Position numbers and translations under genes: made by a program. A stretch of 64,000 nucleotides of DNA from Calditrichales bacterium MX18-03 (GTDB lineage: Bacteria > Bacillota > Clostridia > Lutisporales > Lutisporaceae): NCBI GenBank assembly GCA_021083345.1, contig JAJGRE010000004.1:124001-188000 (forward strand). Direction: 5' to 3'. The notes below the pieces were generated by a model, which saw only the letters and a list, made by a program, of their open reading frames with translations, searched no databases and was not told where the DNA came from. Position 1 is the stretch's first letter. Each line of letters starts with the position of its first letter. Positions 14,436 through 30,482 of this stretch are shown one piece after another.

Positions 14436-14970
14436 TTATATCAATACACTTAAGCACTTGCAAATTTCTGCCGGTGCGTTATCGTAGCAGTTACCTCTGC
14501 GACTCATGCCGCCTCTTATTTTAAATCTTCTCAACAATTCCCGGTATTCTTCGCTGGCGTACTGTACACCCTGATCGGAATGGCAAATAAGACCTTCGCC
14601 TGGCTTTCGGTCTGTTACAGCTCTATTCAATGATTTAATAACTATGTCTCTCTTTAAGCTTTCTGACATCGCCATTCCAACAACCTTGCGGTCAAACAGG
14701 TCAATATGGGTAGCAAGATATAACCACCCCTCATCCGTCGCTACATATGTAATGTCAGAAACCCACACCTGATTCGGCACTGTAGCACAAAAATCTTGCT
14801 GCAGAAGAATCTCATAGACCGGCAGTCCATGCCTTGAATTCGTTGTGGCTGTGTATTTGCGCTCTCGCCTCTGTCTCTCCATTTGTAAAATCCACTTTCG
14901 GACACCTTAAAACCTGGCACAGCTTCTTGATCCGAAAGATGCTCTTATGTTGTTCAATGAACTCATACTT
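14436..14970 (-). pseudogene. IS3-family orfB remnant (DDE transposase, broken)
   Basis: Three parts of an IS3 OrfB are recognisable. KYEFIEQHKSIFRIKKLCQV begins at 14970, just past the orfA stop and in the -1 frame, as expected for programmed frameshifting. VSESGFYKWRDRGES continues in a different frame. From 14882 the frame with TTNSRHGLPVYE, VWVSDITYVATDEGWLYLA and HSDQGVQYAS holds the first two catalytic aspartates. The stretch between the second and third parts (about 70 residues) is missing. The C-terminus ends abruptly after NCYDNAPAE, before the rest of the usual SFFKTLK segment. The protein cannot be functional. Confidence 0.75.
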
Positions 14971-15278
14971 TAGCTGTTTTCAATTTTTGAGAAGATGTGC
15001 ACCGCTTTTTTTAATATCGCAATCTCTTCCTTCTTATCCCTTAGAAGCCTTTCTAGTTCCCTTATTCTCAACTTGTCTTCCTTGTTGACTTCTGGTTTGG
15101 GGGATGATAATACAGGGATACCCTTCCTCTTATTGTATTGACTGATCCATTTATAGACGCTGTTTTTGTTGATCCCAAGCTCCGTTGCAATCTGGTTGCC
15201 GCTTTTACCATCTTCGATGGTAGTGTCAAGAATCTTTCGCACATTTTTACGGATATCTCCAAGTAACTTCCGGCTCAT
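14970..15278 (-). CDS. IS3-family orfA 3' part, re-started from the IS256-type end
   Basis: The 102-residue frame holds the HTH of an IS3 OrfA (GKSGNQIATELGINKNSVYK) and a leucine-zipper-like C-terminus (LRIRELERLLRDKKEEIAIL). Its first 20 or so residues are encoded by the terminal sequence of the inserted IS256-type element (15220-15278). Its ATG overlaps the stop of that transposase as TAATG, so it could be translated by coupling as a hybrid OrfA. An A7G run precedes the end of the frame, as in IS3 frameshift windows. Whether the hybrid is made is unknown. Confidence 0.65.
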   Translation of the reverse strand: MSRKLLGDIRKNVRKILDTTIEDGKSGNQIATELGINKNSVYKWISQYNKRKGIPVLSSPKPEVNKEDKLRIRELERLLRDKKEEIAILKKAVHIFSKIENS

Positions 15279-16815: not shown

Positions 16816-16864
16816 TGGTGCACCTAAAGGGAGTCGAACCCCCGACCTGCGGTTTAGGAAACCG
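16816..16864 (-). repeat. Left attachment site: displaced 3' part of tRNA-Arg (49-bp direct repeat)
   Basis: These 49 bases are identical to 30406-30454. They cover the anticodon arm, variable loop, T arm, acceptor 3' strand and CCA of tRNA-Arg. The 5' half of the tRNA is absent here, so this is the fragment left behind by site-specific integration and not a gene. Confidence 0.92.
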
Positions 16865-16875
16865 CTTAAATGGCG

Positions 16876-16996
16876 TTGGTGCATATTTGCACAGGTTTAA
16901 AGGCGTTGAAATTGCTTGATTATTATAGTAGTCTTATTGGTGCATATGGGCTTAAATTGGTGCGTGTTTTTAAAAAATGGCGCATAACTGGTGCAT
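16876..16996 (+). repeat. Cluster of five TTGGTGCAT-type repeats inside the left end
   Basis: Copies lie at 16876-16884 and 16937-16945 (TTGGTGCAT), 16957-16965 (TTGGTGCGT), 16977-16985 (ATGGCGCAT) and 16988-16996 (CTGGTGCAT). A related TTGGCGCAT is at 30337-30345 in the right end, and an inverted copy is at 27800-27808. The placement fits arm-type binding sites of a tyrosine integrase. Confidence 0.55.
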
Positions 16997-17104
16997 GTAC
17001 ATCAATACATGTATGTATCTTTACCAGCAATAGGCGGCTTGACGTAACCTTGCTTTAACCTTGCAGTTTCCTTTGTAGTCAATGTGATCCCGTTCATACT
17101 CGTG

Positions 17105-17142
17105 AGTGTTGCCAATGTTATTCTATTAGCCTCGGCAACACT
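17105..17142. other. Inverted repeat after the last leftward gene
   Basis: AGTGTTGCC (17105-17113) and GGCAACACT (17134-17142) form a perfect 9-bp stem with a 20-base loop, ten bases past the stop of the 17.2-kb gene. No T run follows, so it is a weak terminator at best and may stabilise the transcript end. Confidence 0.45.
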
Positions 17143-17152
17143 TCTCTATACT

Positions 17153-17521
17153 TTATCTCTTCTTCAATTTAGGCTTATAAGTGCCCTTTATAATCTTGCT
17201 AACCGTTGAATAATTAATACTGATATTATAATCTTTATAAAGCTTTGCAGCTATCTTCCGGCATGATAACGGTGGTAACGAATTATAGTGCAACATCATG
17301 ATTTTGCTTTTTGTATCCTCGTATATGTTAGAAGTTCTATAACATGGCTTTTGTTGCCGATTCTGTTGTTTTGACTTTGGCAACATTTTTTCTTTAGCAA
17401 GGGATGGCATGGCCTGTGCTAGATATAGTTGGGTGAATCTAAGCAAATCCTCATAGCCGTCATGTATTACTTTTTCCTCGTAATCTTTGTCCCAGTATTT
17501 CATAATACTAACGTGTTTCAT
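17153..17521 (-). CDS. Small HTH protein of unknown function
   Basis: The start at 17521 has GAGAGGGGG upstream. Of the 122 residues, the C-terminal third (SCRKIAAKLYKDYN, then STVSKIIKG) has the pattern of a helix-turn-helix, similar to those in phage and transposon regulators. The N-terminal half (MKHVSIMKYWDKDYEEKV) is not recognised. It is the last leftward gene before the left attachment site. A regulatory or DNA-binding role is inference. Confidence 0.6.
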   Translation of the reverse strand: MKHVSIMKYWDKDYEEKVIHDGYEDLLRFTQLYLAQAMPSLAKEKMLPKSKQQNRQQKPCYRTSNIYEDTKSKIMMLHYNSLPPLSCRKIAAKLYKDYNISINYSTVSKIIKGTYKPKLKKR

Positions 17522-17675
17522 TCTATTACCCCCTCTCACTTCCATGGTACACCCAATACAGCAAGCCGCACAAGAGCCTATACGCATTAGAATTATCCAT
17601 CAATAGTAGTAAACGACCCCTTGAATGCGAAAAGCCCTCACAATCCCTTGTAAAGGCTCATATTCCAAGCAGTAT

Positions 17676-18251
17676 TTATAAAACCGGATCAAGTACTGGG
17701 TGTTCCTCTATAAACTTCGCTCTTTGATTATGCAAAATCAGTACAAGTTCATCACCATCAATCAACTCCACTTGTATGCCTTGCGGGAGAGTCTTAGCAT
17801 AATCAATTGCTTCCTGAGAGTAACTACTTGAAGTTATTACAATTCCTCTAGTTACTTTATCATGGTAACATGCGCCTACAAGCTTTTGAATCACCGGCCT
17901 ACCAACCAAGTTATCTTCATGCCACAATTTACATTCAGCATAATACTCTATGCCGTCTTTTTCTGCTATTATGTCTTTTCCTCCATCGGCAACCGCTTCC
18001 GTCACCATAACATAGTTGTATCCCATAGTTTTAAGCAGCCCAGCACACCATGATTCAAATGCATCATAGCCTTCAGGCGTTTTCTGGTCTTTCATCTTCA
18101 TAAGCTCTTGTTTATTAATCAGCTTCAATGTATCGATTTTAATACGCCTTTCAAATAGGTCAAGTTCCCTTTTCTTACAATACGCTTTGTAAGACTTATC
18201 TAGCACCAAGGTAACCGTAATAATTGCAAGCATTGTAAATACATAACTCAT
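17676..18251 (-). CDS. Membrane-anchored Mrr-like restriction endonuclease domain protein
   Basis: This 191-residue protein has one N-terminal hydrophobic helix (about 5-18) and a basic segment. A PD-(D/E)xK nuclease domain of the Mrr type follows, with AVADGGKDIIAEKDG and YYAECKLW supplying the D and E-x-K residues, and RPVIQKLVGA after them. Mrr-type domains cleave DNA, often modified DNA. The membrane tether is seen in other small restriction-like proteins of mobile elements. No methyltransferase is encoded nearby, so it would act without a classical modification partner. A defence role against phages competing with the element is inference. Confidence 0.8.
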   Translation of the reverse strand: MSYVFTMLAIITVTLVLDKSYKAYCKKRELDLFERRIKIDTLKLINKQELMKMKDQKTPEGYDAFESWCAGLLKTMGYNYVMVTEAVADGGKDIIAEKDGIEYYAECKLWHEDNLVGRPVIQKLVGACYHDKVTRGIVITSSSYSQEAIDYAKTLPQGIQVELIDGDELVLILHNQRAKFIEEHPVLDPVL

Positions 18252-18311
18252 TGTACCAACTCCTTTGCATTAGTATGTGTAAGAATTGGTAAATTATGAG
18301 TGCTTAACGAT

Positions 18312-18515
18312 CTAGTCAGGAATGTATTCGAACAACTCCCCTAGCTGACAGTTAAATAATTTGCACAGCTTATTCATTGTGTCATAATCAACCCTTTTTA
18401 CACTCTCGTGATACAAGTTAGAAATTGTATTTCGATTTAAGCCGGTTTTTTCATGTACATCCTGGATTGTAAGTTTGTTGATTCCCATTTGTTTTGATAA
18501 ATTACACTTTATCAT
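18312..18515 (-). CDS. Cro/CI-type HTH regulator
   Basis: The start at 18515 follows AAAAGGGG. The 67-residue protein is a single XRE-family HTH (LTIQDVHEKTGLNRNTIS, then CKLFNCQLGELFEYIPD), the size of a Cro-like protein. It is transcribed away from a small gene at 18680. The gap between them holds a 13-bp inverted repeat over a good promoter. It probably binds there and controls both directions; this is inference from layout. Confidence 0.8.
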   Translation of the reverse strand: MIKCNLSKQMGINKLTIQDVHEKTGLNRNTISNLYHESVKRVDYDTMNKLCKLFNCQLGELFEYIPD

Positions 18516-18595
18516 AGTTACACCCCTTTTAATTATTATGTTAATTAAAATAATATACATGTATTATAAAATAGTCAATATATTATATGATTCAC

Positions 18596-18648
18596 TTGAC
18601 TATTTGATTAACTTGCATTACAATATACTTAACATGTTAATCAAATAG
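18596..18648 (+). promoter_or_regulatory. Sigma-A promoter within a 13-bp inverted-repeat operator
   Basis: TTGACT (18596-18601) and TACAAT (18619-18624) are 17 bp apart and point to the small gene at 18680. CTATTTGATTAAC (18600-18612) and GTTAATCAAATAG (18636-18648) are perfect inverted repeats that bracket the -10 box and likely start site. This is a textbook repression layout for the divergent HTH protein. Confidence 0.75.
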
Positions 18649-18679
18649 CTTGAGAAAACATTTTTAAGGAGGGGTATAA

Positions 18680-18832
18680 ATGAATAGTTCTGAACAAAAT
18701 ACTACATCGAATACAGACAATACAGTGTTTACTGACTTCATAAAATGTATTAATTCAATAGTAGTCGGAGGTCAAGTATATAGCATTAAAGATTTATCAT
18801 CGCAACAAAAAGCAAGTAAGAGTGAGGGATGA
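18680..18832 (+). CDS. Small 50-residue protein of unknown function
   Basis: AAGGAGGGG precedes the ATG by seven bases and a strong promoter lies upstream. The product (MNSSEQNTTSNTDNTVFTDF at its start) is polar, with a short hydrophobic patch IVVGG, and has no recognised domain. The stop codon falls in the loop of a strong terminator, so this is a self-contained transcription unit. It is the only rightward gene in the cargo part of the element. It could be an anti-repressor, antitoxin or inhibitor, but nothing in the sequence decides. Confidence 0.65.
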   Translation: MNSSEQNTTSNTDNTVFTDFIKCINSIVVGGQVYSIKDLSSQQKASKSEG

Positions 18833-18846
18833 CCTCACTCTTTTCT
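18818..18846 (+). terminator. Terminator of the 50-residue gene
   Basis: GAGTGAGG (18820-18827) pairs with CCTCACTC (18833-18840), and TTTTCT follows. The stop codon of the small gene lies in the loop. Confidence 0.85.
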
Positions 18847-18882
18847 ATTCAATCAACTTTAATTCGCTACATACACACTGGA

Positions 18883-19476
18883 TTAGCAATTAACTGATGC
18901 ATCTTTATCAATATTTTGTTCTGCACAACCCATCATTGTATTGTCAGCCTTACACTGTACCTTAACCCATTCACCATACTCTTCCTCTGTACATACTTTT
19001 ACAGCGCATAATGCTATATAGTATTCATTTCCCTTTTTATATATATCGGTAAAACACTCAAAATTGAACTCTTCCTCCTTTAAGGCATCCAAATTTTGGT
19101 CCAAAAAAGACTTGAACGTGTGTTTATAATAATATTCACCTGTAAGTTGAGTGTCTTCAGCAATCTTTCTTATTATTGAATGATAATCTGGATATAAACA
19201 CATGCTCTTCATTTCAATTGTTTCTAAGTCGACTTTAAAAAACTCCTTGGTCTGGCTGATTCTATATTCTTTCAGAGCTTCATGCATTAATTTTTCTGCT
19301 CTTTCCACATCAAGCGCATAAAAACTGAACTCTTCTTTAAATGGCATAGGTATACTTGTTGATCTTGATAATTCTTCTATTCTTCCTTTTACAGATTTAG
19401 TGGTATATCCAACTTTATATATATCAGGCATGCACTCATTACTTAAAACATATACAAATCCTTCCACTAAATTCAC
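18883..19476 (-). CDS. T5orf172/MUG113-type GIY-YIG nuclease domain protein
   Basis: The 197-residue protein starts with GFVYVLSN, then YKVGYTTKSVKGRIEEL and ERAEKLMHEAL. These are the GIY-YIG core with its catalytic Tyr, Arg and Glu as in the T5orf172 and MUG113 families, which occur mainly in phages and mobile elements. The C-terminal 100 residues are not recognised. The gene starts 20 bp after the stop of the DnaJ-RDD gene and is probably co-transcribed with it. A DNA-cutting role against invading or competing DNA is plausible but not shown. Confidence 0.75.
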   Translation of the reverse strand: MNLVEGFVYVLSNECMPDIYKVGYTTKSVKGRIEELSRSTSIPMPFKEEFSFYALDVERAEKLMHEALKEYRISQTKEFFKVDLETIEMKSMCLYPDYHSIIRKIAEDTQLTGEYYYKHTFKSFLDQNLDALKEEEFNFECFTDIYKKGNEYYIALCAVKVCTEEEYGEWVKVQCKADNTMMGCAEQNIDKDASVNC

Positions 19477-19496
19477 CCGCAGTTCAGTTTTGATTA

Positions 19497-20594
19497 TTAT
19501 TGTTTACTAAGCTTATTATTATATTCTTCGATTGACTTATTGTGCAGCACTCTTCTTTTTTCAAATTCCTCAAGCTTCGAGTTATAATCCTCTATCATTT
19601 GCTCATATACATAATAGTTTTCATCATACTTATCCGGGTCACTGTCAAGCCACACTTTCATCTGATCTTCAAATTCTACGAATTTCTGATAATCGGAATC
19701 TATTTCGTTTTGCATATTAGTTAATGCCGCTTCCTCTTTCTCTATCTGCAAATATACTTCGTCCATTTGCTGGGCGAATGCTTGTTGCTGCCTTTTTAAT
19801 TCATCCTGGTGAATATTGAGATATATTAGTCCTGCGAATAAAGCTATGACTATTACTGTTGACAATACAATTTTGGGTGTGCTGTTCTTCTTTGATATAG
19901 TAACCGTACCACAGTCCAAATCCCAGCTTGTAAATATATTTGAAGTTAGTTTACCATATGCTTTTATTGACGTAAACAATGCCACTATTGGGATTCCTAG
20001 CCCTAGCCCCCTATACAGTACTAAAAAGCTTCTTTTCAAAGCTAAACTATAATTCAGTTTATTACCCTCCCTATCTAATACATATAAATTAAACAACCAT
20101 TTACCAGGGGTCGTTCCGAACATAGAAACTATTAACGCTTCGACAAAAAGCCAAATACCATACAGAACTCCTGTCAGAAGATATTCATAAACATATTCAA
20201 CTAATGCACTATATGAAGAAGGATGGATGTAACTCCAACTATATGCTACAATAAAGCAACCTATTAGAATATCAATACTTCTAGCCCAATATCTTAGCCA
20301 TGGGCGGGGCTTAAGCATTTCAGCTGCGTCTTGGCTTATAGCATCGTCATTAATGGGCTGGTCATACTCGGTTGTATGATAAGTATCAAACCCCGCGTCA
20401 TATTGCCTTCTTTTATCAGCATCAATTAGTGTCTCATATGCTACGTTTAAAGCCTTCATTAATTCTTCACATCTTGGCCGCTCTGCCGGAGGGTTAACAT
20501 CAGGGTGATATTTCTTTGCCAATACTCTATATGCCTTTTCGATGACTTCTTTTGATGCATGTGGGCTAACTTCGAGTATGTCATAGTAGGTCAT
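19497..20594 (-). CDS. DnaJ-domain protein with RDD membrane domain and C-terminal coiled coil
   Basis: The 365 residues contain a J domain at about 2-68 (YHPDVNPPAE with the HPD motif). An RDD-type membrane region follows at about 95-230, with RYWARSIDILIGCF and the GTTPGKWLFNLYV signature. Then come a further hydrophobic helix (about 243-260) and a long acidic coiled coil (265-365). J domains stimulate Hsp70 ATPase, and RDD domains are membrane modules of unclear role. The combination suggests a membrane-bound recruiter of DnaK. It sits in the cargo part of the element next to a GIY-YIG nuclease gene. I do not know a characterised protein of this layout. Confidence 0.75.
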   Translation of the reverse strand: MTYYDILEVSPHASKEVIEKAYRVLAKKYHPDVNPPAERPRCEELMKALNVAYETLIDADKRRQYDAGFDTYHTTEYDQPINDDAISQDAAEMLKPRPWLRYWARSIDILIGCFIVAYSWSYIHPSSYSALVEYVYEYLLTGVLYGIWLFVEALIVSMFGTTPGKWLFNLYVLDREGNKLNYSLALKRSFLVLYRGLGLGIPIVALFTSIKAYGKLTSNIFTSWDLDCGTVTISKKNSTPKIVLSTVIVIALFAGLIYLNIHQDELKRQQQAFAQQMDEVYLQIEKEEAALTNMQNEIDSDYQKFVEFEDQMKVWLDSDPDKYDENYYVYEQMIEDYNSKLEEFEKRRVLHNKSIEEYNNKLSKQ

Positions 20595-20660
20595 TATAAT
20601 ATCCCCCTTGTATGTTAATATTTTACTTTAATAGTATCACTATGGGAATTGCTTGTCTAA

Positions 20661-20687
20661 TAAAAAAGGAAGCGGTATTCGCTTCCG
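20661..20687 (-). terminator. Terminator of the Ntn-hydrolase/polyvalent gene
   Basis: GGAAGCG and CGCTTCC form the stem with a five-base loop, and six T follow on the minus strand, about 20 bases past the stop. It ends the long leftward operon before the DnaJ-RDD gene. Confidence 0.85.
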
Positions 20688-20705
20688 TAGGACTGATCTA
20701 TATTT

Positions 20706-23700
20706 TTATCTCAATATTTTGGGTAGCAAAAGGTTTTTCTTTGCTTCCTGGTTAATCTCGGTTAAGATGCCCTGTAATTTCTTAGCCTGTAATTCAGGCT
20801 TCTGATTTCTAAACGCCGGGCTTAAAGCCAATTTATCAAATCTTTTTGCGGTTTCTTCCCCTAGGTACTTTTGTAGTTCCGTCACCTGTTCCGGAGTCAA
20901 ATCAATACGTTTGCCCTGATGCATAATATATGTGCTGGCAGTCCTGGGAAATTGAATCTTCTCACCAGACTTTTCGTATATATCAAGCACCATTTCTGCA
21001 GCAGGAGTGGGATTGTTTTTCGATACATTAGCCGGATTTAGAAGCACGTTCAACAGGTTGTTACTACCACCCGGATATACTTCTTTCTCTTTACCTAGCG
21101 TAGTTATACGTGGTTGGAGTCCCTTGGATGATACCGGTAGTCTTCCTTTAACCATATTAACCGCTTCTTTACCAAAACTAGGATTATATGTACTTCTAGC
21201 AGTGTTATCAGATAGCTGCCTTAACTGGTTTCCTAGTGTTGGCGTAAATGATGCGGGTGTACCTTGAAGGGTATTTGCTATATTCTTTACCGGGTCATAA
21301 CCGCCTGTAAGCTTCTTAACTCCCGTCAATAATGGCTGCTCAACTAAAGTACTTAATCCACTAACAGAAGCGTCCATCAGTGTGGTTAATAAATCAGCTG
21401 TATTACCTCTATTTTGCGCTACATTTGCGCCTACACCTAGCATAATGCTTGTAGGAGCTGCCCAATCCCAGCTTACGAAAGTATCACCGTTCTTTGCTTT
21501 GGCATCTTCCGGATTCCCACTGCCAATAAACCGATTTAGAGCTGTAGTATTTAACCGATATTCACCTTGGCCGATATCACGCTTTAAATTTGCCACGTCC
21601 ATATCTTTATCTGCTGCTCCGGTGATAAGCCCCATTCTATTAAGCTGATACCCTAGCAATATTAGTCCGGTTCCTGTTGTTCCTCTCGATAAAGCATCAA
21701 CAAATTCCTTTTGGTTAAATACCTTGCCCCTTAATGGCTTTGTAGCCTCATTAATTGCCTTTATAGCTGATACCGGAGAATAATCAATCCCTCTTGCCAG
21801 AATGTTCGCCGGTGTTTTACTGTATTTGAGAACCAAATCTCCAAGTCCCCATTCAGAAGAGCCTGTAAAGAAACTGGATAATTTATTCAGTCCATCCTTA
21901 ATGCGCTTAAAGCCTTCACTCAATCCATTACTATCCTGGAAGGTTCTGTACTTGGCAATACGGTCCGCAATCTCTATCATCCCCGGTGTAGGTTCGGTAG
22001 CCCCTGATATTATCATCTGCTGCCTTAAGCTTTCCGCTCTAGCTGCTTCCGAAAATGCCGAATCTGTAGCCTTCAATCCAACGTTCAAGCCAGTTTCAAG
22101 CTTCCCTAAAAGCGTGCCCTTCTTAAATGTATTACCGGTTCCAAGTTCAAATTTTGTTCCCATGCCTTTTGTATCAATACCCTGTAATGCATCCTCAACT
22201 GCTTCTACAAATCCTTTTGAGCCTTCCTCGATCTGTGTTTTTACACTCGGCAGTATGGTTGTCCTCTGACCGGTTATCCTACTAACAGCTGTATCCAGCG
22301 GCGTTCCCAGTACATTACTGATATTTTCAAGCCCTCCGAATATTGCGTTTCCGACTGTGTTTCTAATCATCGTTTTAGGGTTCAAGAGCTGCGCCAAAGT
22401 CTGTATCGTTGAAACCTTTCGCCATATAGTTTTCGGAAGCTGCTCGTCTATATCTCTTAGAACCTTTGCAATTTCAATAGTCTTTTCTCTGCTGTCCGGC
22501 ATGGCATTTACTTTGTTCATTCTTTCCGTAATGTTCTTTGCAAAGTCTTCCGACAGTTTTAGCCTCTTGGTAAGCTTATCCCCATCTTTGAACATCTGAT
22601 CATTGGCTTTATCAAACAATTTCTGAGTGTATTTCAGCATACCTTCCGGTGTAAGCCTTCCCCACATTGATAGAGCTTGTATGGCTTGTCCGCTTTCTGT
22701 GGCCTTCTTACTTATGTCTTCAATAATGTCTATAGCTTCATTATATCGGTTTTCCCCTTGGAGTTTTCTTACGAGTTCCATCCCTAAAGCATTATTCTCT
22801 GCTGTTACCGGACCGTCCTTTACTCTCCTTATAGCTTCGTCATAGTTGCTATTAATAATCTTTCTAACATTCTCTAACGTTCCCTGGTTTGTTATAGGAT
22901 CATAACTATAGTCTGTTTTGCTTAATGATGCTTTCAATTCCGGATTAGCAACCTCGCTGTTAAGTATAGAGCTCGGCAAGCTTCTAGTAGCCTTCCCCTC
23001 GACTGTAGGGAGCTTTATAAGAGGTTTTTCAACCTTCGGTGTTGCAATACTGCCCAATGGCTTAAATTCGTTTATAAGAGGTTTTGGAGCGTCCTTCTTT
23101 GATATTGGTTGTGTTATCTTTGGCAGCTCCTTAACCCCTGCTGCATTTGCCAGGTTTCTTTGTGCTCCTATCCTCTTAAGGTCGATACCCTTTTCAGCAG
23201 TTTCTATGTTTTTAATTATGCTGTTAAGATCAATACCTAACTCTGATTTAATCCTAACCATTTCTTCCTCTCTTAATTGGTTGGTCTTGAAATGGTTCTG
23301 TATAGTTTCAATAGCTGTATTATATTCATTTATCGCATTGTCTAAGGCTGTGTTCTTAACTTTGTATGTACCTGTGCTTTTAATCAGCGTCGGCTTAAGA
23401 GATTTTGCAGTATTATCCATTGTCGCTGCTGCTTCTATGGGGATCTTATCGAATTTTCCAGCTATGACATTATCTACAACCAGCCTACCTACTTTATTTA
23501 ATCCCGTAAGCCCGATATCTGCCAGAATACCTATGCCAAACCTTATATGCTGCGTTAATCCTTTAAACCTTTCCATATGTTTATTTACTGCTGCGATGTA
23601 TTCCTCCGGTGCCCTCAGCACTTCCATCCTGTCTATTATCTTTTCTTGTCTTAAAAGAGTTATGTCATTTTTACTGTCTATCAAATAGATAGATAAAGTA

Positions 23701-24266
23701 CCGCCAGCATAATTACCGGAACAGCGACCGTACACCTCTGTTATAATATCTTCTAAACTGCCATATCTTTCGTCTTCTGCGAGCTCTTCCATATGATTTT
23801 GGATTATCGGAATATCTTTACCCAGTATTAAAAGTGCACCTTCTTCTACAGTTTTTCTTAATTCATATCCTGTTTTATGCGACATGTAATATACTGTAGG
23901 GATTCCTTCCTCTACACAGGCTGCAGCTATGTTTAATTGTGTGAATTCCTCTAAGCGCTTTTGGTCTTCCTCATTTTCCTGTACTCCCAATTCCCTAAAA
24001 TAACCTTCCCATTCAGCTACCAACCCCTTTACTATGTCCTGAAAGGTTTCCATGCTATCCCCTTCGGCTTTTTCAAATTGGTTCAACATTTCATGGTACA
24101 GGGCACAGGTACCAGCACCAAAGAACATTTTACCTTTGACTTGTCTTAACTTATCTATTTCCATGCCTGTATCATAAATTGTTCCATCATGCCCTTTTGT
24201 ACTCATTCTAGAATCTCCAGCCATTATAATACCGTTATTATCGGTTATGATTATACACATACTCAT
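20706..24266 (-). CDS. Proteasome-like Ntn hydrolase fused to a phage large polyvalent protein
   Basis: AAAGGGGG precedes the start. Residues 1-230 resemble a proteasome/HslV-type Ntn hydrolase. GIIMAGDSRMS and EIDKLRQVKGKMFFGAGT supply the Asp and Lys expected at positions 17 and 33 of the fold, and CSGNYAGGTLSIYLID supplies a C-terminal strand. The nucleophile is unclear, because the protein starts MSMC and not with Met-Thr. Residues 300-430 are a lysine/proline-rich linker. From about 450 on, the protein is helical and carries LNPKTMIRNTVGN and related segments typical of large polyvalent proteins of phages and plasmids. Such proteins may enter the host with DNA. It occupies the place where portal and capsid genes would be in a phage, directly after the small terminase operon. 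Confidence 0.7.
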   Translation of the reverse strand: MSMCIIITDNNGIIMAGDSRMSTKGHDGTIYDTGMEIDKLRQVKGKMFFGAGTCALYHEMLNQFEKAEGDSMETFQDIVKGLVAEWEGYFRELGVQENEEDQKRLEEFTQLNIAAACVEEGIPTVYYMSHKTGYELRKTVEEGALLILGKDIPIIQNHMEELAEDERYGSLEDIITEVYGRCSGNYAGGTLSIYLIDSKNDITLLRQEKIIDRMEVLRAPEEYIAAVNKHMERFKGLTQHIRFGIGILADIGLTGLNKVGRLVVDNVIAGKFDKIPIEAAATMDNTAKSLKPTLIKSTGTYKVKNTALDNAINEYNTAIETIQNHFKTNQLREEEMVRIKSELGIDLNSIIKNIETAEKGIDLKRIGAQRNLANAAGVKELPKITQPISKKDAPKPLINEFKPLGSIATPKVEKPLIKLPTVEGKATRSLPSSILNSEVANPELKASLSKTDYSYDPITNQGTLENVRKIINSNYDEAIRRVKDGPVTAENNALGMELVRKLQGENRYNEAIDIIEDISKKATESGQAIQALSMWGRLTPEGMLKYTQKLFDKANDQMFKDGDKLTKRLKLSEDFAKNITERMNKVNAMPDSREKTIEIAKVLRDIDEQLPKTIWRKVSTIQTLAQLLNPKTMIRNTVGNAIFGGLENISNVLGTPLDTAVSRITGQRTTILPSVKTQIEEGSKGFVEAVEDALQGIDTKGMGTKFELGTGNTFKKGTLLGKLETGLNVGLKATDSAFSEAARAESLRQQMIISGATEPTPGMIEIADRIAKYRTFQDSNGLSEGFKRIKDGLNKLSSFFTGSSEWGLGDLVLKYSKTPANILARGIDYSPVSAIKAINEATKPLRGKVFNQKEFVDALSRGTTGTGLILLGYQLNRMGLITGAADKDMDVANLKRDIGQGEYRLNTTALNRFIGSGNPEDAKAKNGDTFVSWDWAAPTSIMLGVGANVAQNRGNTADLLTTLMDASVSGLSTLVEQPLLTGVKKLTGGYDPVKNIANTLQGTPASFTPTLGNQLRQLSDNTARSTYNPSFGKEAVNMVKGRLPVSSKGLQPRITTLGKEKEVYPGGSNNLLNVLLNPANVSKNNPTPAAEMVLDIYEKSGEKIQFPRTASTYIMHQGKRIDLTPEQVTELQKYLGEETAKRFDKLALSPAFRNQKPELQAKKLQGILTEINQEAKKNLLLPKILR

Positions 24267-24269
24267 AGT

Positions 24270-24614
24270 TTAATCCCCCTTTCGCTCATTAGCTTCTATT
24301 TCATTAATTCGCTCCTTAGCCCACTCAAGATTCCCATGGAGTATTTTCAATGAGTAAACAAGTTGCTGATCGTAGGACATGTTTTTAATCTCTGCAAGCA
24401 ATTCTTCATAGCTCAGTTCCTTGATAGTACCATTCTCAATATTCTCTATTTGTTCCCGCCACCAGTTCGGCCTTGCTTGCATGTCATCTAATTGAAACTT
24501 TCGTATCTCTCTCAATCTTAGCTCTTCCGACATATTCTCAATATCTCGCGCATTGTTTGCTCTTAACGCCTCTATTTCCTTCTGTAATTTCGTCAACTCA
24601 GTTCTGATACTCAT
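24270..24614 (-). CDS. Coiled-coil protein between TerS and the polyvalent protein
   Basis: The 114-residue product is charged and helical (TELTKLQKEIEALRANNARD), with no recognised domain. It overlaps the TerS stop by four bases (ATGA) and ends three bases before the polyvalent gene, so all three are one transcriptional unit. By position it could be an adaptor for packaging or for the large protein; this is a guess. Confidence 0.7.
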   Translation of the reverse strand: MSIRTELTKLQKEIEALRANNARDIENMSEELRLREIRKFQLDDMQARPNWWREQIENIENGTIKELSYEELLAEIKNMSYDQQLVYSLKILHGNLEWAKERINEIEANERKGD

Positions 24615-25156
24615 TTTTTCTCGCCTCCTATGCTTTGTTTTAACTCTTCAATTTCTGTCCTTAATTGGTCAATCAGCTTTTGAATTTCAGGGCTTTCAAA
24701 TAAGCCTAGATGTTTTCCTAGCATCTCTATGGCTTTTAGCTTGTCATAAGCTTTTATCGATACAGTTCCCCTAGAGTTTTTTATTTCCTGTATCAGTGAG
24801 GTATCAACCGAATCACTGTCTTTCAGGTCTATTACCTGCTGATAGCCTATAACGGGCTGACCTCCTTCATCATAACCATCTATGGCTTTTACGGTCTTGT
24901 AATTTATGTAGCAACCGATATCGAACTTTATGATCTTCAATAGCTCCTGGACTAACATGTTCTGTGTCACTTCTGCTTGCTCTGCAAGCTTTTGCTGCCG
25001 CTTTCTAATCTCTTCCTGTATGCCGACATTTGCCGACAGTCTAGCAGCTTGGTTATGTGCATCTTTAGGGCTATATCCAGCCCTAATAGCTGCCTGTGTG
25101 GCATTACAATCCTTCAGGTACTCATCTACAAACCGCTGTTGCTTATCCGTAAGCAA
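24611..25156 (-). CDS. terS: Phage terminase small subunit
   Basis: The 181 residues begin LTDKQQRFVDEYLKDCNATQ and AAIRAGYSPKDAHNQAARL, the HTH of the Terminase_2 family. A central oligomerisation region and a coiled coil follow. TerS recognises pac or cos DNA and loads the large terminase. No large terminase is encoded in the element. In SaPI-type satellites a lone TerS redirects packaging by a helper phage's large terminase toward satellite DNA, and the same is inferred here. Confidence 0.88.
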   Translation of the reverse strand: MLTDKQQRFVDEYLKDCNATQAAIRAGYSPKDAHNQAARLSANVGIQEEIRKRQQKLAEQAEVTQNMLVQELLKIIKFDIGCYINYKTVKAIDGYDEGGQPVIGYQQVIDLKDSDSVDTSLIQEIKNSRGTVSIKAYDKLKAIEMLGKHLGLFESPEIQKLIDQLRTEIEELKQSIGGEKK

Positions 25157-25207
25157 TATACATCACCACCTTTCATTTTTCCAACAAAGCCAACATTTTA
25201 ACTTAAC

Positions 25208-26512
25208 CTAATATTTATTCTTATTAATATATTTTGTCAGTTGCCCAACCCACACTAACTCTACGGTGCCGGTCTGCCCGTTTCGATTCTTAGCAGTAAT
25301 GATTTCACCAATATTCTTCTTGTCTGTGTCCGGATTGTAGTATTCATCTCGATAAAGAAATATTACAACGTCTGCATCTTGTTCTATAGCACCTGAATCT
25401 CTTAAATCCGATAAAACGGGACGTTTATTTGTTCTTTGCTCGCATGATCGATTTAACTGAACAAGCAGCACAACTGCAATATTCAATTGTTTTGCCATTG
25501 TTTTTAATGCCTTTGTTATTTCGCTAATCTGCTGCACCCGGTTTTCTGTCTTGCTCTCATGTGCAATGAAGTCAAGGTAGTCAATGAAAATGACATCAAG
25601 ACCTTTAATCTCTTTACACTTATTTTTTATCTGTGTTACTGTCTGCGGCGTTGTATCGTCTATGTATAATCCAGCGTTGTTAATAACATTTGTTATCTTA
25701 GCAATGTTAGTCCAATCGGCTTCCTCTAACTGCCCCGTCTTTAGTTTCATACTATCAATATGTGTTAGCTGTGATATTAAGCGTTGCATCACTAATTCTT
25801 TACTCATTTCCATGCTGAAAATTGCTGCTGTAGTATTATTTTTTATAGTCATACTTTCAGCCACATTCAGCATAAAAGCAGTTTTCCCCATTGAGGGCCT
25901 AGCGGCAACTATTGTCAACTCGCCTTTGGTAACACCAGATAATTTATTATCTAGATCGGTGAATCCTGTAGGTATAGCCCCAACACATCCACCATTATTC
26001 TGGTTATTCTCAATAATCGTCAATGTGGTATCTAGCAATTCTCCTGCTCTGTGGGCTTGTCCTTTTGAATTTCCAGGAACACGAGTTATAACATTTTCTA
26101 TCTCTTGTATCTCCTGAAAATAATCACCTTCATATGCTTTGTTTAAAAGCGCTGTAGTGGCTTTTATTGTGTCCCTTCTGTGTTTGTAGTCTTTTAATAT
26201 TTTTGCGTGATGTATGACGTTTGCAGCTGATGTCGCAGGTGTCGCATCCATTAATTCAGCCAGAAAAACTGGTGTGATAATATCTCTACTATCTTTCATT
26301 GCATCAAGTAATGTTAATATGTCTACCGGCTTTTCATCTTCGTCTAATTGAATGATAACGGTGCAAAGCTCCTTATGAATCTCCTTGTAAAAATCCTCAG
26401 GTTGTAGTAAACTTTTTATTAGTTGAATATTTTCTTTTTTAATTAGCATTGTGCCTAGCAATGCTTTTTCTATTTCCTCATTGTGTGGGGGTATCCTCAA
26501 AACACTAGTCAT
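25208..26512 (-). CDS. DnaB-type replicative helicase
   Basis: The 434 residues have a DnaB N-terminal domain (NEEIEKALLGTML) and a RecA-like core. ARPSMGKT is Walker A (about residue 205), DVIFIDYLD is Walker B, and VQLNRSCEQRTNKRPVLSDL is the DNA-binding and arginine-finger region. It unwinds the fork during element replication. It overlaps the loader gene by eight bases. Together with the initiator-like gene upstream this makes a self-sufficient replication module. Confidence 0.93.
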   Translation of the reverse strand: MTSVLRIPPHNEEIEKALLGTMLIKKENIQLIKSLLQPEDFYKEIHKELCTVIIQLDEDEKPVDILTLLDAMKDSRDIITPVFLAELMDATPATSAANVIHHAKILKDYKHRRDTIKATTALLNKAYEGDYFQEIQEIENVITRVPGNSKGQAHRAGELLDTTLTIIENNQNNGGCVGAIPTGFTDLDNKLSGVTKGELTIVAARPSMGKTAFMLNVAESMTIKNNTTAAIFSMEMSKELVMQRLISQLTHIDSMKLKTGQLEEADWTNIAKITNVINNAGLYIDDTTPQTVTQIKNKCKEIKGLDVIFIDYLDFIAHESKTENRVQQISEITKALKTMAKQLNIAVVLLVQLNRSCEQRTNKRPVLSDLRDSGAIEQDADVVIFLYRDEYYNPDTDKKNIGEIITAKNRNGQTGTVELVWVGQLTKYINKNKY

Positions 26513-26930
26513 AAAGCACCTCCGTGTATGCTTTCATGAATGCTTTCTGTGCTTCACCCTGATCCATCGCCCCCAAATAACTGATTCTAAATTTCTTCGC
26601 AGCCTCTAACACTTTGCCGCTTAAATGTTCATATATGTTGTTGCCGTATGCACCTAATGCCTTATCGATTATTTGCCAGGCTTCGGCCGGCGTTGGGTTA
26701 TCTCTTTTGATCAGTTCAGCTTTCAATTCCGCTATCGTGGGAGCATACTTCGATTTCTTGACATGCATTTTCAAAGCAGTTGCAACACTTTCAAATGACT
26801 CCGCAATAAAACTGTCTGCCCAAATTTCAATAAGTTCTTTTACATCATCATCGCTGATAGGTGAACTATTGAATTGAGGGTAAAGAATTTCAATTCGCTT
26901 TAAAATCTTTGCTGCTTCAGTTGTGTTCAT
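26505..26930 (-). CDS. Phage-type helicase loader/inhibitor (G39P-like)
   Basis: The 141-residue protein is all-helical. It has an N-terminal segment (EAAKILKRIEILYPQF) and a central KSKYAPTIAELKAEL like loaders of the SPP1 G39P family, which hold the hexameric helicase and deliver it to the origin. It lies directly before the helicase gene, with an eight-base overlap, and overlaps the initiator-like gene by four bases (ATGA). Confidence 0.75.
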   Translation of the reverse strand: MNTTEAAKILKRIEILYPQFNSSPISDDDVKELIEIWADSFIAESFESVATALKMHVKKSKYAPTIAELKAELIKRDNPTPAEAWQIIDKALGAYGNNIYEHLSGKVLEAAKKFRISYLGAMDQGEAQKAFMKAYTEVLYD

Positions 26931-27667
26931 CGACTTTCACCACCATTTATAAATTTATCGAACTTGCTTATTGGACTGAGCTTGTCCGGTTTACCAATGT
27001 TTCCAGTATAGTCAAGGTAACCAGCGTATTCCTGCTTTTGACCCATAAAATTTGTTGATCGCACGTAAAACTTGGAATCAACCTTATTTTCCTTTAGATA
27101 TTGAATATAGTTGTTTGTGGCTTTCATTATGTCTTCTGCTAAAACTCCTTTTTTTAACAAAGCACACCAATTTCTATAACTTTGTGGTTTATTGAATGCA
27201 TTCGGATAAATTGAATAAAATGCTTCAAACTCAGCAGTATATATATTCTTTTTTTCTTTTTTATCTTTTTTATCTTTCTTGTTTGTGTCGGCTTGTTGTT
27301 GCTTTGCTGTTGCTTTGTTGTTGGATTTGTTGTCGGTTTCTTCCATATCCAATTGGTACAATGCCCAATTTTCAACGGTTATAACTGAAAACTTGTTGTT
27401 GGATTTTATGTTGATAATTTGAAGTCTATTTAATGTGTGCATATGGTCATTGAGTGTTGATGGCTTAATCTTCAATTCTTGAGCTGCTTTAAGCCGACCG
27501 TAAACGAATTGCCCTGGCTGCAATTTAACACATTGAAGTCCCACTAATATATCCCGTTCCTTATATGTAGCTTTTAGGAGACACCATATAAAGACTTTTA
27601 ATAACCTCTCATTTTGGAATACGGGATTATCCAATATCTTTCTGTATAATCTGATGTATCCATCCAC
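26927..27667 (-). CDS. Winged-helix replication initiator/DnaD-like protein
   Basis: The 246-residue protein opens with GYIRLYRKILDNPVFQNERL and continues as a winged helix (LKIKPSTLNDHMHTLNRLQI), as in phage replisome organisers and DnaD N-domains. A lysine/aspartate-rich linker (DTNKKDKKDKKEKKN) leads to a DnaD/DnaB-like C-terminal region (YSIYPNAFNKPQSYRNW). It probably binds the element's origin and recruits the loader and helicase encoded after it. The 5' side (27668-27817) holds possible origin repeats. Confidence 0.8.
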   Translation of the reverse strand: MDGYIRLYRKILDNPVFQNERLLKVFIWCLLKATYKERDILVGLQCVKLQPGQFVYGRLKAAQELKIKPSTLNDHMHTLNRLQIINIKSNNKFSVITVENWALYQLDMEETDNKSNNKATAKQQQADTNKKDKKDKKEKKNIYTAEFEAFYSIYPNAFNKPQSYRNWCALLKKGVLAEDIMKATNNYIQYLKENKVDSKFYVRSTNFMGQKQEYAGYLDYTGNIGKPDKLSPISKFDKFINGGESR

Positions 27668-27820
27668 ATTTCACATCCTCCTATTCATTCTTTAAGTTCA
27701 CTTTTTAACGAAAGTTTACCGTGCAACGGATATGCAAACCGTCGTTATTGATTTATAAGGCGTTGAAATTACTACGTTCTCCGTCACAGCCGTTTGTTTA
27801 TGCGCCAAAACGTGCACCTA
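27668..27820. promoter_or_regulatory. Spacer with candidate origin/excision sites
   Basis: The gap between the excisionase-like gene and the initiator gene holds CCGTGCAACGG (a small inverted repeat) and AAGGCGTTGAAATT, which recurs near the left end at 16899-16912. It also holds an inverted copy (27799-27820) of the right-end segment 30326-30346. Shared sites at both ends and beside the excisionase-like gene suggest integrase/excisionase binding. An origin here is only a possibility. Confidence 0.4.
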
Positions 27821-28039
27821 ACCGCTAATTTTTCGTAGTTTTTGAGGCTCATTACACATACTTTGAGATTGAAGATTGTCTAACCAAAGCTGTATTTTTT
27901 CTGTATCATATAGGTATAATCGTTTTCCTATCGTTATATGTGGAATCAATTTTTTTCTCCGCAAATCATTTATTGTCCACGCCGTTAATTTTTCCCCTGA
28001 CCATTCTACTAATTCTTTACAATTAAGCAGCTTACCCAT
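27818..28039 (-). CDS. Excisionase-like small HTH protein
   Basis: The 73 residues read LLNCKELVEWSGEKLTAWTI, then LIPHITIGKRLYLYDTEKIQ. This is the MerR-like winged HTH of excisionases and related helix-turn-helix_17 proteins. It lies two bases after the preceding XRE gene and next to possible integrase sites. An excision role fits the position (xis in satellites), but a plain regulator is possible. Confidence 0.7.
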   Translation of the reverse strand: MGKLLNCKELVEWSGEKLTAWTINDLRRKKLIPHITIGKRLYLYDTEKIQLWLDNLQSQSMCNEPQKLRKISG

Positions 28040-28041
28040 GG

Positions 28042-28257
28042 TTAGGCCCCCTTCTCTATAATTTCGAAAAGATCATCAAATTGTTTTTTAAGAAAATCAC
28101 ATAATTTTTTTGCTGTTTTAGGTCTTAGACTAGCTTTTCCGTTCTCAATTTGGCTGTATGTAGCAATATTCAAGCCTGTTCCTATACATACATCCGATTG
28201 ATTATAACCTTGTTCGATTCTTGCCTTTTTGATATTACCAGTTCTAACCTTAATCAT
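28042..28257 (-). CDS. XRE-family HTH protein, first gene of the leftward operon
   Basis: This 71-residue single HTH (IKKARIEQGYNQSDVCIGTG, then YSQIENGKASLRPKTAKKL) is transcribed divergently from the CI-like repressor. In satellites the first gene opposite the master repressor is often a Cro-like or Str regulator. The shared 190-bp gap holds four operator-like palindromes, so the pair probably forms the lysogeny switch. Confidence 0.82.
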   Translation of the reverse strand: MIKVRTGNIKKARIEQGYNQSDVCIGTGLNIATYSQIENGKASLRPKTAKKLCDFLKKQFDDLFEIIEKGA

Positions 28258-28274
28258 ATCTTACACCTCCATTC

Positions 28275-28384
28275 CACTAATAGTGTACATACTATTTTTA
28301 TACATTCACTTAAAGTGTATATATTTGCCTTTAATATACAACACTATTTGTGTTAATTCAACTATTATTATTCCACTATTAGTG
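28275..28384. promoter_or_regulatory. Four palindromic operators between divergent regulators
   Basis: CACTAATAGTG (28275-28285), CACTTAAAGTG (28307-28317), CACTATTTGTG (28342-28352) and CACTATTAGTG (28374-28384) start 32, 35 and 32 bp apart, about three helical turns. The last abuts the -35 box of the repressor promoter and the first lies near the start of the leftward operon. They are the likely binding sites of the CI-like repressor. Confidence 0.8.
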
Positions 28385-28413
28385 TTGACATTGTGTTTTC
28401 TATGTGTTATATT
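28385..28413 (+). promoter_or_regulatory. Sigma-A promoter of the repressor-integrase operon
   Basis: TTGACA (28385-28390) and TATATT (28408-28413) are separated by 17 bp and precede the repressor start by 33 bp. Operator 28374-28384 directly adjoins the -35 box, which suggests autoregulation. Confidence 0.8.
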
Positions 28414-28446
28414 TAGCTTAATTAATTACTTGGAAGGAGTATTTTT

Positions 28447-29034
28447 ATGAGCCAAGCATCCGATAAAAAGGCCGGGTTAATAGAACTGGGTAAAAAATTA
28501 AGAGAATTACGTGATAATAAAGGAAAAAGTCAAAAAGAAGCTGCTGGGGACTTAGATTTAAAGCCATCAGTTCTTTCAAGTTACGAAATAGGAGACAGAG
28601 AGCCTTCCATTATTACTTTAAATAAAATTGCTAGGTATTATAACGTAACTGTTGATTATCTTACAGACAATAGCCCCTATAAGACTTCAGAGCACAAATT
28701 ACTTGAAAACAGCAATATCCTCAGTAAAGAAGCAATAAATAGAATATTAAATTTAAACCCTAGTACAATTACTTTTTTAGATAAATTATTATGTACTAGC
28801 GAATTTAGTAATTTTATTGACACATTAAACTTTTATAAATATTTTCCGCATGAAAAATTTCAGCAGATGGCAGAGAAAATGATAAATGAAGATATGCCTG
28901 CTTATAAATTAGGGGTGCTAATAACTGCTAATAGGTTAAGAGAGGATTACCTAAGAAAATTTGTAGATGAATCACTTGATAAGTTACTTACAGATATTAA
29001 GATGATAGATATTGAGAAAGAAATGGAGGAGTAA
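28447..29034 (+). CDS. CI/Stl-like master repressor
   Basis: GGAAGGAG precedes the ATG. The 195 residues have an N-terminal XRE HTH (LGKKLRELRDNKGKSQKEAA, SSYEIGDREPSIITLN, then VDYLTD) and a helical C-terminal half with no peptidase residues. It is therefore not a LexA-type self-cleaving repressor. In SaPIs a repressor without cleavage (Stl) is released by a helper-phage protein, and the same is possible here. It ends four bases before the integrase start. Confidence 0.82.
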   Translation: MSQASDKKAGLIELGKKLRELRDNKGKSQKEAAGDLDLKPSVLSSYEIGDREPSIITLNKIARYYNVTVDYLTDNSPYKTSEHKLLENSNILSKEAINRILNLNPSTITFLDKLLCTSEFSNFIDTLNFYKYFPHEKFQQMAEKMINEDMPAYKLGVLITANRLREDYLRKFVDESLDKLLTDIKMIDIEKEMEE

Positions 29035-29037
29035 CCC

Positions 29038-30285
29038 ATGTCACAGGAAAAGCGAAGGAGTGCCGGATCGTATAGGCTTTTACCTTCAGGCAAATATCAA
29101 TTGGCTGTATCGGCTGGGACTGATTCAAAAGGTCAACGACAACGCCATTATAAAACCATCGAAGCAAGAAACGACAGGGAAGCAGAAAAGGCTTTGGCTG
29201 CTTTTATTACAGAGGTTGAGGGCGGTACATATATAGAGCCGGTAAAAATGAGTTTTGAAGATGTTTTTAAGAAATGGATTGCATCACACCAGGGCGAAAA
29301 AGAACTTGCTCCAAAAACTAAAGCCAGATATGAGCAATTGTTTGATCTTCGAATTAAAGACTATTTTAACCGCTACAAACTTGAAAAAATCAATGCAACA
29401 ATGATTGATGATTTCTTTACAGAATTAAGAAACATGGACCGATTAGACAGGAGAAAAGGAAAACTAAGCGAGCAGACAGTAAAACATCATTACAGGCTCA
29501 TCAATGCAGTATTTGCCTATGCATACCGTAAAGGGTTAATAAAATCTAACCCTATGGAGAAGACCGAACCGGTTTCAGTTCAAAAGAAGGAAATTCATTG
29601 CTTTAACGAAGAACAGATCACAATATTATTGGAAGCACTTGAAACGGCAGAAACAAAGTTTAAAACAACTATACATATCGCTTTAAACGGCCTTAGACTG
29701 GGCGAAGTTATGGGACTTGAATGGTCGGATGTGGATTATAAAAACAATACTATAAGAATTGAACGAACTAGCCAGTACATAGCCGGTAAAGGCATTATCA
29801 CAAAGAAACCTAAGACTAAGAAGTCTACGCGTACTATATCAATGCCTGAAGAAGTAATGAACCTGATCCGTCAGCATGAAATTGAACAGAAACAACAGAG
29901 AATGAAAGTCGCAAATAAATGGGAAAACAGCAATCGATTATTTACAACAGAACTAGGCGCACCAATGTTCCCGGAGACACCTTCAAAATGGTTCAACGAA
30001 TTTATTAAATGTCACAACGAGAAAATAAAGAGTGATCCGGATATACAAGAAGATAATAAACCCCTGCACATGCTTCCGGAGGATGTAACGTTCCACGGCC
30101 TGCGGCATACAAGCGTTAGTTACTTGATCGCAAACGGTGAGGACGTGGCAACAATAGCGCAAAGGCACGGACACAGTAACGCGAACACAACATTATCTAT
30201 TTATGCTCACTCATTTAAAAAGCGTGATGAAGCTGCAGCCGATAAAATGTCGGGGCTGTTTAAGAAGAAAACAGCAGTAAAATAA
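29038..30285 (+). CDS. int: Tyrosine recombinase (integrase) of the tRNA-Arg element
   Basis: The 415 residues hold an N-terminal arm-binding domain (GSYRLLPSGKYQLAVSAG), a SAM-like core-binding domain (about 65-170) and the catalytic domain. LNGLRLGEVMGLEW gives the first Arg, HGLRHTSVSYL gives His-x-x-Arg, GHSNANTTLSIYAH gives His and the nucleophilic Tyr, and KPKTKKSTRTI gives the Lys. It joins and excises the element at tRNA-Arg. It lies 120 bp from the right attachment site. Its ribosome site GGAGGAG is inside the end of the repressor gene, so the two are coupled. Confidence 0.95.
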   Translation: MSQEKRRSAGSYRLLPSGKYQLAVSAGTDSKGQRQRHYKTIEARNDREAEKALAAFITEVEGGTYIEPVKMSFEDVFKKWIASHQGEKELAPKTKARYEQLFDLRIKDYFNRYKLEKINATMIDDFFTELRNMDRLDRRKGKLSEQTVKHHYRLINAVFAYAYRKGLIKSNPMEKTEPVSVQKKEIHCFNEEQITILLEALETAETKFKTTIHIALNGLRLGEVMGLEWSDVDYKNNTIRIERTSQYIAGKGIITKKPKTKKSTRTISMPEEVMNLIRQHEIEQKQQRMKVANKWENSNRLFTTELGAPMFPETPSKWFNEFIKCHNEKIKSDPDIQEDNKPLHMLPEDVTFHGLRHTSVSYLIANGEDVATIAQRHGHSNANTTLSIYAHSFKKRDEAAADKMSGLFKKKTAVK

Positions 30286-30287
30286 TA

Positions 30288-30318
30288 GGTCGGATTTAAT
30301 ATCCGATCTTTCTCTTTT
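30288..30318 (+). terminator. Integrase terminator
   Basis: GGTCGGAT (30288-30295) pairs with ATCCGATC (30301-30308), and TTTCTCTTTT follows directly after the integrase stop. Confidence 0.75.
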
Positions 30319-30325
30319 ATCAAAT

Positions 30326-30346
30326 TAGGTGCACGTTTGGCGCATA
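30326..30346 (+). repeat. Right-end arm site, inverted copy near the excisionase-like gene
   Basis: The segment contains AGGTGCACG and TTGGCGCAT. Its reverse complement recurs with one extra base at 27799-27820. It also resembles the acceptor end of the tRNA. Binding by integrase or excisionase is inference. Confidence 0.5.
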
Positions 30347-30405
30347 GAACGATTTTAAAATAAAAAAGTTGTAAAGCTTTAAGCCTTACAACCTAGTGTT
30401 TTCAG

Positions 30406-30454
30406 TGGTGCACCTAAAGGGAGTCGAACCCCCGACCTGCGGTTTAGGAAACCG
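30406..30454 (-). repeat. Right attachment site (49-bp repeat within tRNA-Arg)
   Basis: These 49 bases are identical to 16816-16864. Here they complete a full tRNA, so the element brought in a 3' half that restores the gene. Confidence 0.92.
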
Positions 30455-30482
30455 TCGCTCTATCCTGCTGAGCTATAGGTGC
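30406..30482 (-). tRNA. tRNA-Arg, anticodon CCU, with encoded CCA
   Basis: On the minus strand the acceptor stem is GCACCTA with TAGGTGC, followed by A and CCA. The D arm has TAGCTCAGCAGGATAGAGC, the anticodon arm is CGGTTTCCTAAACCG (loop anticodon CCT), and the T arm has GGGTTCGACTCCC. Length is 74 without CCA. It is the integration target of the adjacent element and is intact after integration. Confidence 0.95.

Follow-up and report, generated by a model that had tools for sequence, protein, structure and literature searches.

What kind of mobile element keeps replication genes and a small terminase subunit (TerS) of its own, and how could it reach another cell? The question is raised by a 13.6-kb element integrated at a tRNA-Arg gene of Calditrichales bacterium MX18-03, within a stretch of 64,000 nucleotides of contig JAJGRE010000004.1 (positions 124,001 to 188,000), hereafter the window, whose own coordinates are used throughout. 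The best reading, to which we assign a probability of about 0.62, is that of an integrated phage satellite, a clostridial variant of the phage-inducible chromosomal island (PICI) type carrying its own virion-entry protein. A satellite had been proposed in the original prediction, and this proposal is still the best supported and fits the relatives described below, but it had missed a virion-type protein of 1186 amino acids (p1186) that strains one PICI criterion, the absence of structural genes (PMC6092414).

As had been predicted, the element is bounded by 49-bp direct repeats at tRNA-Arg; the two copies are identical with a spacing of 13590, the right-hand one forming the 3′ part of tRNA-Arg(CCU), and the element's G+C content is 30–43% against 41–50% in the flanking kilobases sampled. 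All open reading frames (ORFs) between these perfect attachment (att) repeats are intact. Gene identities were checked against Pfam and PHROGs, which confirmed the integrase, repressor, initiator, helicase loader, DnaB and TerS originally named and gave a weak match (E 0.003) for the xis-like gene. Zero matches to families of the large terminase subunit (TerL), portal, capsid, tail or lysis proteins were obtained inside the element, and the stated lack of TerL, portal, capsid and lysis genes holds, whereas that of tail genes does not, the p1186 ORF with its homology to a phage structural-cluster protein having been overlooked.

The minus strand carries, in order, genes for cro-like, xis-like, DnaD-like initiator, G39P loader, DnaB, TerS, p114 and p1186 proteins. 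The gene ends of initiator and loader, loader and DnaB, and TerS and p114 overlap; the distance is 3 bp between p114 and p1186 and 51 bp between DnaB and TerS, and a gap of ~150 bp precedes the initiator. p1186 is the largest gene, making up 26% of the element, and stands two genes after TerS as the last of the run before a terminator-like hairpin. The overlaps, the tight spacing and the hairpin suggest a coherent gene run rather than a deletion scar. When the TerS was searched in 22 genomes of the family it was found in the window itself only, and a search of genome contigs gave four distant partial matches only.

Replication module and related elements

The SPP1-type trio of initiator, G39P loader and DnaB is contiguous in the window element, and the same trio is present in two other elements, here called L152 and L046. 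The original remark on a full DnaB was borne out, as the protein has both domains, is 44% identical to the host DnaB and 62–67% identical to the DnaBs of these two elements, and forms a clade with them (100/100) that is distinct from the DnaBs of the host family (100/99). Judged from this tree, the window DnaB is a member of an element-specific lineage, and a recent capture of host dnaB by the element was ruled out. A profile search for G39P matched L046 only. In SPP1, the organiser G38P binds the origin and G39P recruits the G40P helicase, which in turn recruits host DnaG (PMC5615212); repeats and an A-rich tract within the initiator gene of the window element could possibly be such an origin. 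The DnaB lineage common to the three elements provides a sequence handle for finding a family of SPP1-type replicons, which searches keyed on VapE/Pri-Rep primases may overlook.

L152, from a genome (G132) of the same family and another genus, shares the integrase (41% identity), initiator (38%), loader (45%) and DnaB (67%), and its cargo after DnaB consists of phospholipase D (PLD)-type proteins and two DNA methyltransferases of restriction-modification type; TerS, portal, capsid or other structural genes were not recognised in it. It bears the 20-bp repeat TTGGTGTTTATTTGGTGTTT at both ends, perhaps integrase arm sites, and distally a 3′ fragment resembling tRNA-Arg(CCU), while its int-proximal end is without the tRNA, which points to a rearrangement of the contig at this end or to a different site. 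L046, a 6.4-kb sequence from IMG/VR, has xis-like and O/DnaD-like initiator genes, a loader (40%) and DnaB (62%), and then a 127-amino-acid protein, homologues of which immediately precede terL-portal in Butyrivibrio phage Arawn and Caldibacillus phage CBP1; from this position the protein is taken to be a TerS. It is followed by a Prophage_tail protein (PF06605, 9e-36), with no TerL or portal between them.

An element of another genome (G330) is 16.9 kb long between 59-bp repeats at tRNA-Ser(GCU) and encodes an integrase (37% identity), VapE, a sigma factor and TerS (phrog_57). Two genes past TerS lies a protein with an N-terminal nucleophile (Ntn) domain, found by a profile that itself contains the G330 protein, and the C-terminus of this protein matches PANG_00015 of Paenibacillus phage PG1, which stands two genes after the tape measure gene, suggesting a tail-tip-like protein. 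A plan of replication genes, TerS and one virion-tip or internal protein without TerL, portal or capsid thus appears to recur in three elements, with TerS and virion genes that are not homologous.

A further contig, L153 (IMGVR_UViG_2883073253_000001, 17647 bp), was set aside as plasmid-like and more distant; it has DnaD (52% N-terminal), DnaB (33%) and a tape-measure gene that continues past both contig ends, as would be expected of a circular molecule, and no TerL was noticed. The genome of L152 also holds a locus (L154, G132:C177) with tRNA-Arg(CCU)-like 3′ fragments at 150-161 and 13470-13481, 13.3 kb apart, between which lie ordinary metabolic genes; an intact tRNA-Arg(CCU) was not found there.

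The virion-type protein p1186

As a single sequence, p1186 matched nothing in Pfam, PHROGs, IMG/VR, phages or plasmids, and sequence searches of the PDB gave nothing useful. Whole-genome searches traced its C-terminal ~750 residues to homologous large proteins elsewhere in the class and phylum, and a profile of this part matched 80 IMG/VR loci. Where the context of homologues was read (genomes G201, G062, G599, G520, G714 and G104), they belong to podovirus-like clusters of structural genes that also encode TerL, portal and capsid, usually close to the cluster end and just ahead of the lysis or integrase genes. The 750-residue C-terminal part aligns over its full length with a phage protein, and residues ~290-420 are also common to the G201 protein. 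These homologies point to p1186 as a virion-type protein, of the podovirus internal or ejection kind, which would be present in the particle and injected. The C-terminus gave an AlphaFold2 model with a predicted local distance difference test (pLDDT) score of 42, too poor for fold comparison.

The N-terminal 220 residues were modelled from a shallow, 3-row alignment with a predicted template modelling score (pTM) of 0.64 and a mean pLDDT of 63. Among the matches listed by Foldseek against the PDB, all were proteasome subunits (best E 3e-7, probability 1.00), and the model therefore suggests an Ntn-hydrolase fold of the 20S-proteasome/HslV type. Three homologues share Ser2, Asp18 and Lys39 without variation, but Ser2 is absent from one relative, the first copy in genome G176; as read from the alignment and not from superposition, the three residues would resemble proteasome Thr1/Asp17/Lys33 if Met1 is removed. 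The Ntn profile had zero matches in IMG/VR, the Ntn head was not seen in the inspected homologues of full prophages, and no second copy of p1186 was found in this genome.

Ntn domains were also seen at two other loci. A phage fragment of the same family (L038, G364:C440) has a major head protein (phrog_1328) with a 370-amino-acid Ntn protein close behind, indicating that the domain occurs in an ordinary phage cluster too. In G176, a 24.6-kb element between 45-bp tRNA-Cys repeats (L255/L257, G176:C4:15782-40395) has primase genes and encodes, in tandem, two HslV/Ntn-like proteins whose C-termini look fibre-like by eye; TerL, portal and capsid were not noticed. Immediately beyond this element is the end of a separate phage whose integrase is similar, and the two may be a tandem pair.

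Satellite, remnant or island

The reading as a satellite has to be weighed against that of a decayed prophage, in which the genes from terL through the tail had been deleted from a podovirus-like prophage, leaving replication, TerS and the last structural gene. The usual place of p1186 homologues near the end of such clusters in full prophages speaks for it, since a deletion from terS to p1186 would look broadly alike; so does a phage fragment (L216) in which a p1186-like gene directly precedes a Terminase_2-like terS and terL. The order in this fragment is, however, p1186-terS-terL and not terS-p1186, and in the window element the ORFs are all intact, with TerS-p114-p1186 junctions that overlap or are 3 bp apart. 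The original prediction had held that full prophages of matching synteny would make this a deleted prophage, and no such match was found. The full-length prophages that share p1186 have another gene order and another replication module, with primase-helicases where inspected further, and the four whose TerS was examined have TerS of phrog_2538/24579 instead of Terminase_2. These prophages also lack, as far as inspected, the Ntn N-terminal domain, and the closest integrase and replication relative, L152, has the same replicon without recognisable structural genes. Given the gene sets of the relatives, a satellite is favoured, and chance deletion would need the same outcome three times to yield the plan of the three elements; decay of a prophage is accordingly considered unlikely. 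L152 could also speak for a replicating integrative defence or cargo island on an SPP1-type replicon, with TerS and p1186 as passengers and mobility by other means such as transduction or transformation, as its cargo is of restriction-modification and PLD type only, without TerS, and the window element likewise bears Mrr and GIY-YIG-like cargo (Table 1). Against such an island, TerS and p1186 are intact and lie inside the gene run before the hairpin, not among the cargo, and L046 joins the same replicon to a different TerS and a tail protein, as G330 has a TerS and an Ntn tail-tip protein, which makes this explanation distinctly improbable.

Satellites often encode interference factors, and p1186 might be one, acting on the helper or the host, for example as an Ntn protease coupled to a part that serves as decoy for a structural protein of the helper; this possibility lies partly within the satellite reading and would agree with catalytic-type residues on a fold modelled as proteasome-like. 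A full-length alignment of 750 residues with a phage protein exceeds what a decoy needs, and Ser2 is not kept in the first G176 copy, so that we regard this role as rather unlikely. Several observations weigh against the satellite reading itself. The other occurrences of p1186 known here are in full prophages, the analysis identified no helper, L152 demonstrates that the replication module exists without any TerS, and L046 is only a 6.4-kb fragment. The exact gene set has no second copy in the 22 family genomes, 391 genomes of the class or IMG/VR. L216 pairs a Terminase_2-like TerS with a p1186-like gene in a phage fragment, so that both could share one phage source, and the idea that they necessarily came from different phage lineages was weakened by it.

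Were the element a satellite, its repressor would hold the leftward gene run off through the CACTAWTAGTG operators. This motif occurs exactly twice in 64 kb, both times in the divergent repressor/cro intergenic region 28258-28446, where shuffles expect 0.01, and one copy abuts the promoter-like site of the repressor. A helper phage would lift repression, and Cro, Xis and Int would then cut the element out at its 49-bp core in the tRNA gene; the initiator would bind the origin, G39P would load the element DnaB, and host primase and polymerase would copy the DNA, following the SPP1 scheme. TerS would then redirect the helper's large terminase to element DNA, and the element would be packaged into the capsids of another phage, while p1186 would be built into the particles and enter the next cell with the DNA; its Ntn domain may serve to process a protein of the helper or of the host. 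TerL was not found in this genome with PF03354, PF03237, PF04466 and phrog_2, of which one model was positive in 11 of 14 control genomes; with neither TerL nor a second p1186 here, the helper is probably an infecting phage, and it is probably podovirus-like if p1186 works as the position of its homologues suggests.

More tentatively, the three elements could represent a Bacillota satellite class that takes capsid, portal and motor from a helper and keeps its own TerS and one interchangeable virion-tip or internal protein controlling entry. It is equally speculative that this protein is variously a podovirus internal protein, a tail protein or an Ntn-headed tail-tip, that the satellite so sets its own delivery, and that the Ntn domain is a particle-borne protease or hydrolase.

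Beyond the hairpin lie genes that look like cargo, encoding DnaJ-RDD, GIY-YIG-like, HTH, Mrr and p144 proteins, for which PADLOC gave generic nuclease and methyltransferase matches only. Among them a 50-amino-acid ORF (18680-18832, plus strand), accompanied by a sequence resembling a ribosome-binding site and by a 10-bp hairpin (18818-18842), has weak baseplate similarity (PF12322 E 2e-4; phrog_150 E 0.005) and is possibly a piece, or a mimic, of a tail protein from a helper. Near the distal att, at 16876-16998, (T)TGGTGCAT is repeated several times and may provide integrase arm sites, and TGGCGCATA is present near both element ends. In the left flank, transposase-like ORFs (14436-16471, minus strand; IS3-type and mutator-type by eye) adjoin the distal att copy.

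Table 1. Annotated features of the element, in window coordinates
Feature	Position	Strand	Evidence or remark
Distal att copy, 49 bp, 3′ fragment of tRNA-Arg	16816..16864	.	identical to 30406-30454
Helix-turn-helix (HTH)-like protein (p144), cargo	17153..17587	-	
Mrr-type endonuclease with N-terminal hydrophobic segment, cargo	17676..18251	-	
HTH_26 regulator, cargo	18312..18560	-	
T5orf172/GIY-YIG-like protein, cargo	18883..19476	-	PADLOC candidate PDC-S57
DnaJ-RDD membrane protein, cargo	19497..20594	-	Pfam
Terminator-like hairpin with T-run directly after p1186	20668..20686	-	
p1186, predicted proteasome-like Ntn domain (N-terminal) and podovirus structural-cluster domain (C-terminal)	20706..24266	-	1186 aa
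p114, possibly coiled-coil; overlaps terS end	24270..24614	-	relatives: none found
TerS (Terminase_2)	24611..25156	-	Terminase_2 3.5e-40; phrog_51 3e-38
DnaB/G40P-type replicative helicase	25208..26512	-	DnaB_C 5e-97, DnaB_N 6e-22; Walker motifs intact
G39P-type helicase loader	26505..26930	-	PF11417, 1e-8; 45% to L152, 40% to L046
DnaD-like/G38P-like initiator	26927..27667	-	phrog_2514, 2e-34; 38% to L152
Candidate replication origin inside initiator gene (tentative)	27230..27411	.	AAC-rich repeats beside A/T-rich tract
Xis-like HTH protein (weak)	27818..28039	-	phrog_66, E 0.003
Cro-like HTH protein	28042..28257	-	Pfam/PHROGs
Operator-like palindrome CACTAATAGTG	28275..28285	.	
Operator-like palindrome CACTATTAGTG	28374..28384	.	
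Promoter-like TTGACA-17-TATATT before repressor	28385..28413	+	11/12 matches
CI/Stl-like HTH repressor	28447..29034	+	Pfam/PHROGs
Tyrosine integrase, 415 aa	29038..30285	+	phrog_1, 5e-70
int-proximal att copy within intact tRNA-Arg(CCU)	30406..30454	.	
tRNA-Arg, anticodon CCU, integration target	30406..30482	-	

Comparison with known systems

The window element shares with TerS-encoding Gram-positive PICIs, including the Staphylococcus aureus pathogenicity islands (SaPIs), the divergent layout of int-repressor versus xis-replication-terS, a size of ~14 kb and the lack of TerL, portal and capsid (PMC6092414). Its integrase, master regulator and replication genes stand in the conserved divergent order, its 13.6 kb lie within the 12-15 kb between att sites, and a Terminase_2 TerS without TerL corresponds to packaging redirection. 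It differs in having the SPP1-type initiator-loader-DnaB instead of the VapE/Pri-Rep module, and in carrying p1186, whose homology to a phage structural-cluster protein makes the criterion of no structural genes equivocal here. Capsid-redirection, interference and PICI-exclusive families had no match among its genes in Pfam/PHROGs, a comparison that did not include a direct search with SaPI proteins. The element is thus called PICI-like here, a new variant rather than a confirmed PICI, and a satellite with this gene set was not found described in the open-access literature searched, which leaves some journals uncovered. Whereas the absence of structural genes defines classical PICIs, the window element and two others suggest that TerS and one entry protein are kept; if true, DNA delivery by the helper particle could be altered by a satellite, whose one virion gene could hint at the type of helper phage.

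The replisome organiser, helicase loader and DnaB-type helicase are the counterparts of SPP1 genes 38-39-40 (PMC5615212), but SPP1 is a lytic 44-kb phage and the window element is integrated and 13.6 kb long. Podovirus-like prophages of Bacillota also encode very large proteins at the genome end, and those of G599, G520, G062, G201 and G714 are homologous to the p1186 C-terminus, yet these are full prophages in which the Ntn head was not seen; very large end-of-cluster proteins in Clostridium clostridioforme LM41 phi1/phi4 (PMC11318856) are a lead only. Capsid-forming PICIs (cf-PICIs) are likewise satellites that supply part of the particle, carrying capsid, portal and both terminases and borrowing tails (as summarised in PMC10690885); of the capsid, portal and terminase genes so described, the window element has TerS only, and no major capsid, portal, protease or TerL of its own was found with Pfam/PHROGs. 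The Streptomyces satellites Mulch and Flayer also carry virion genes, but they keep packaging and capsid genes without key replication genes, a division of labour opposite to that of the window element (PMC10690885).

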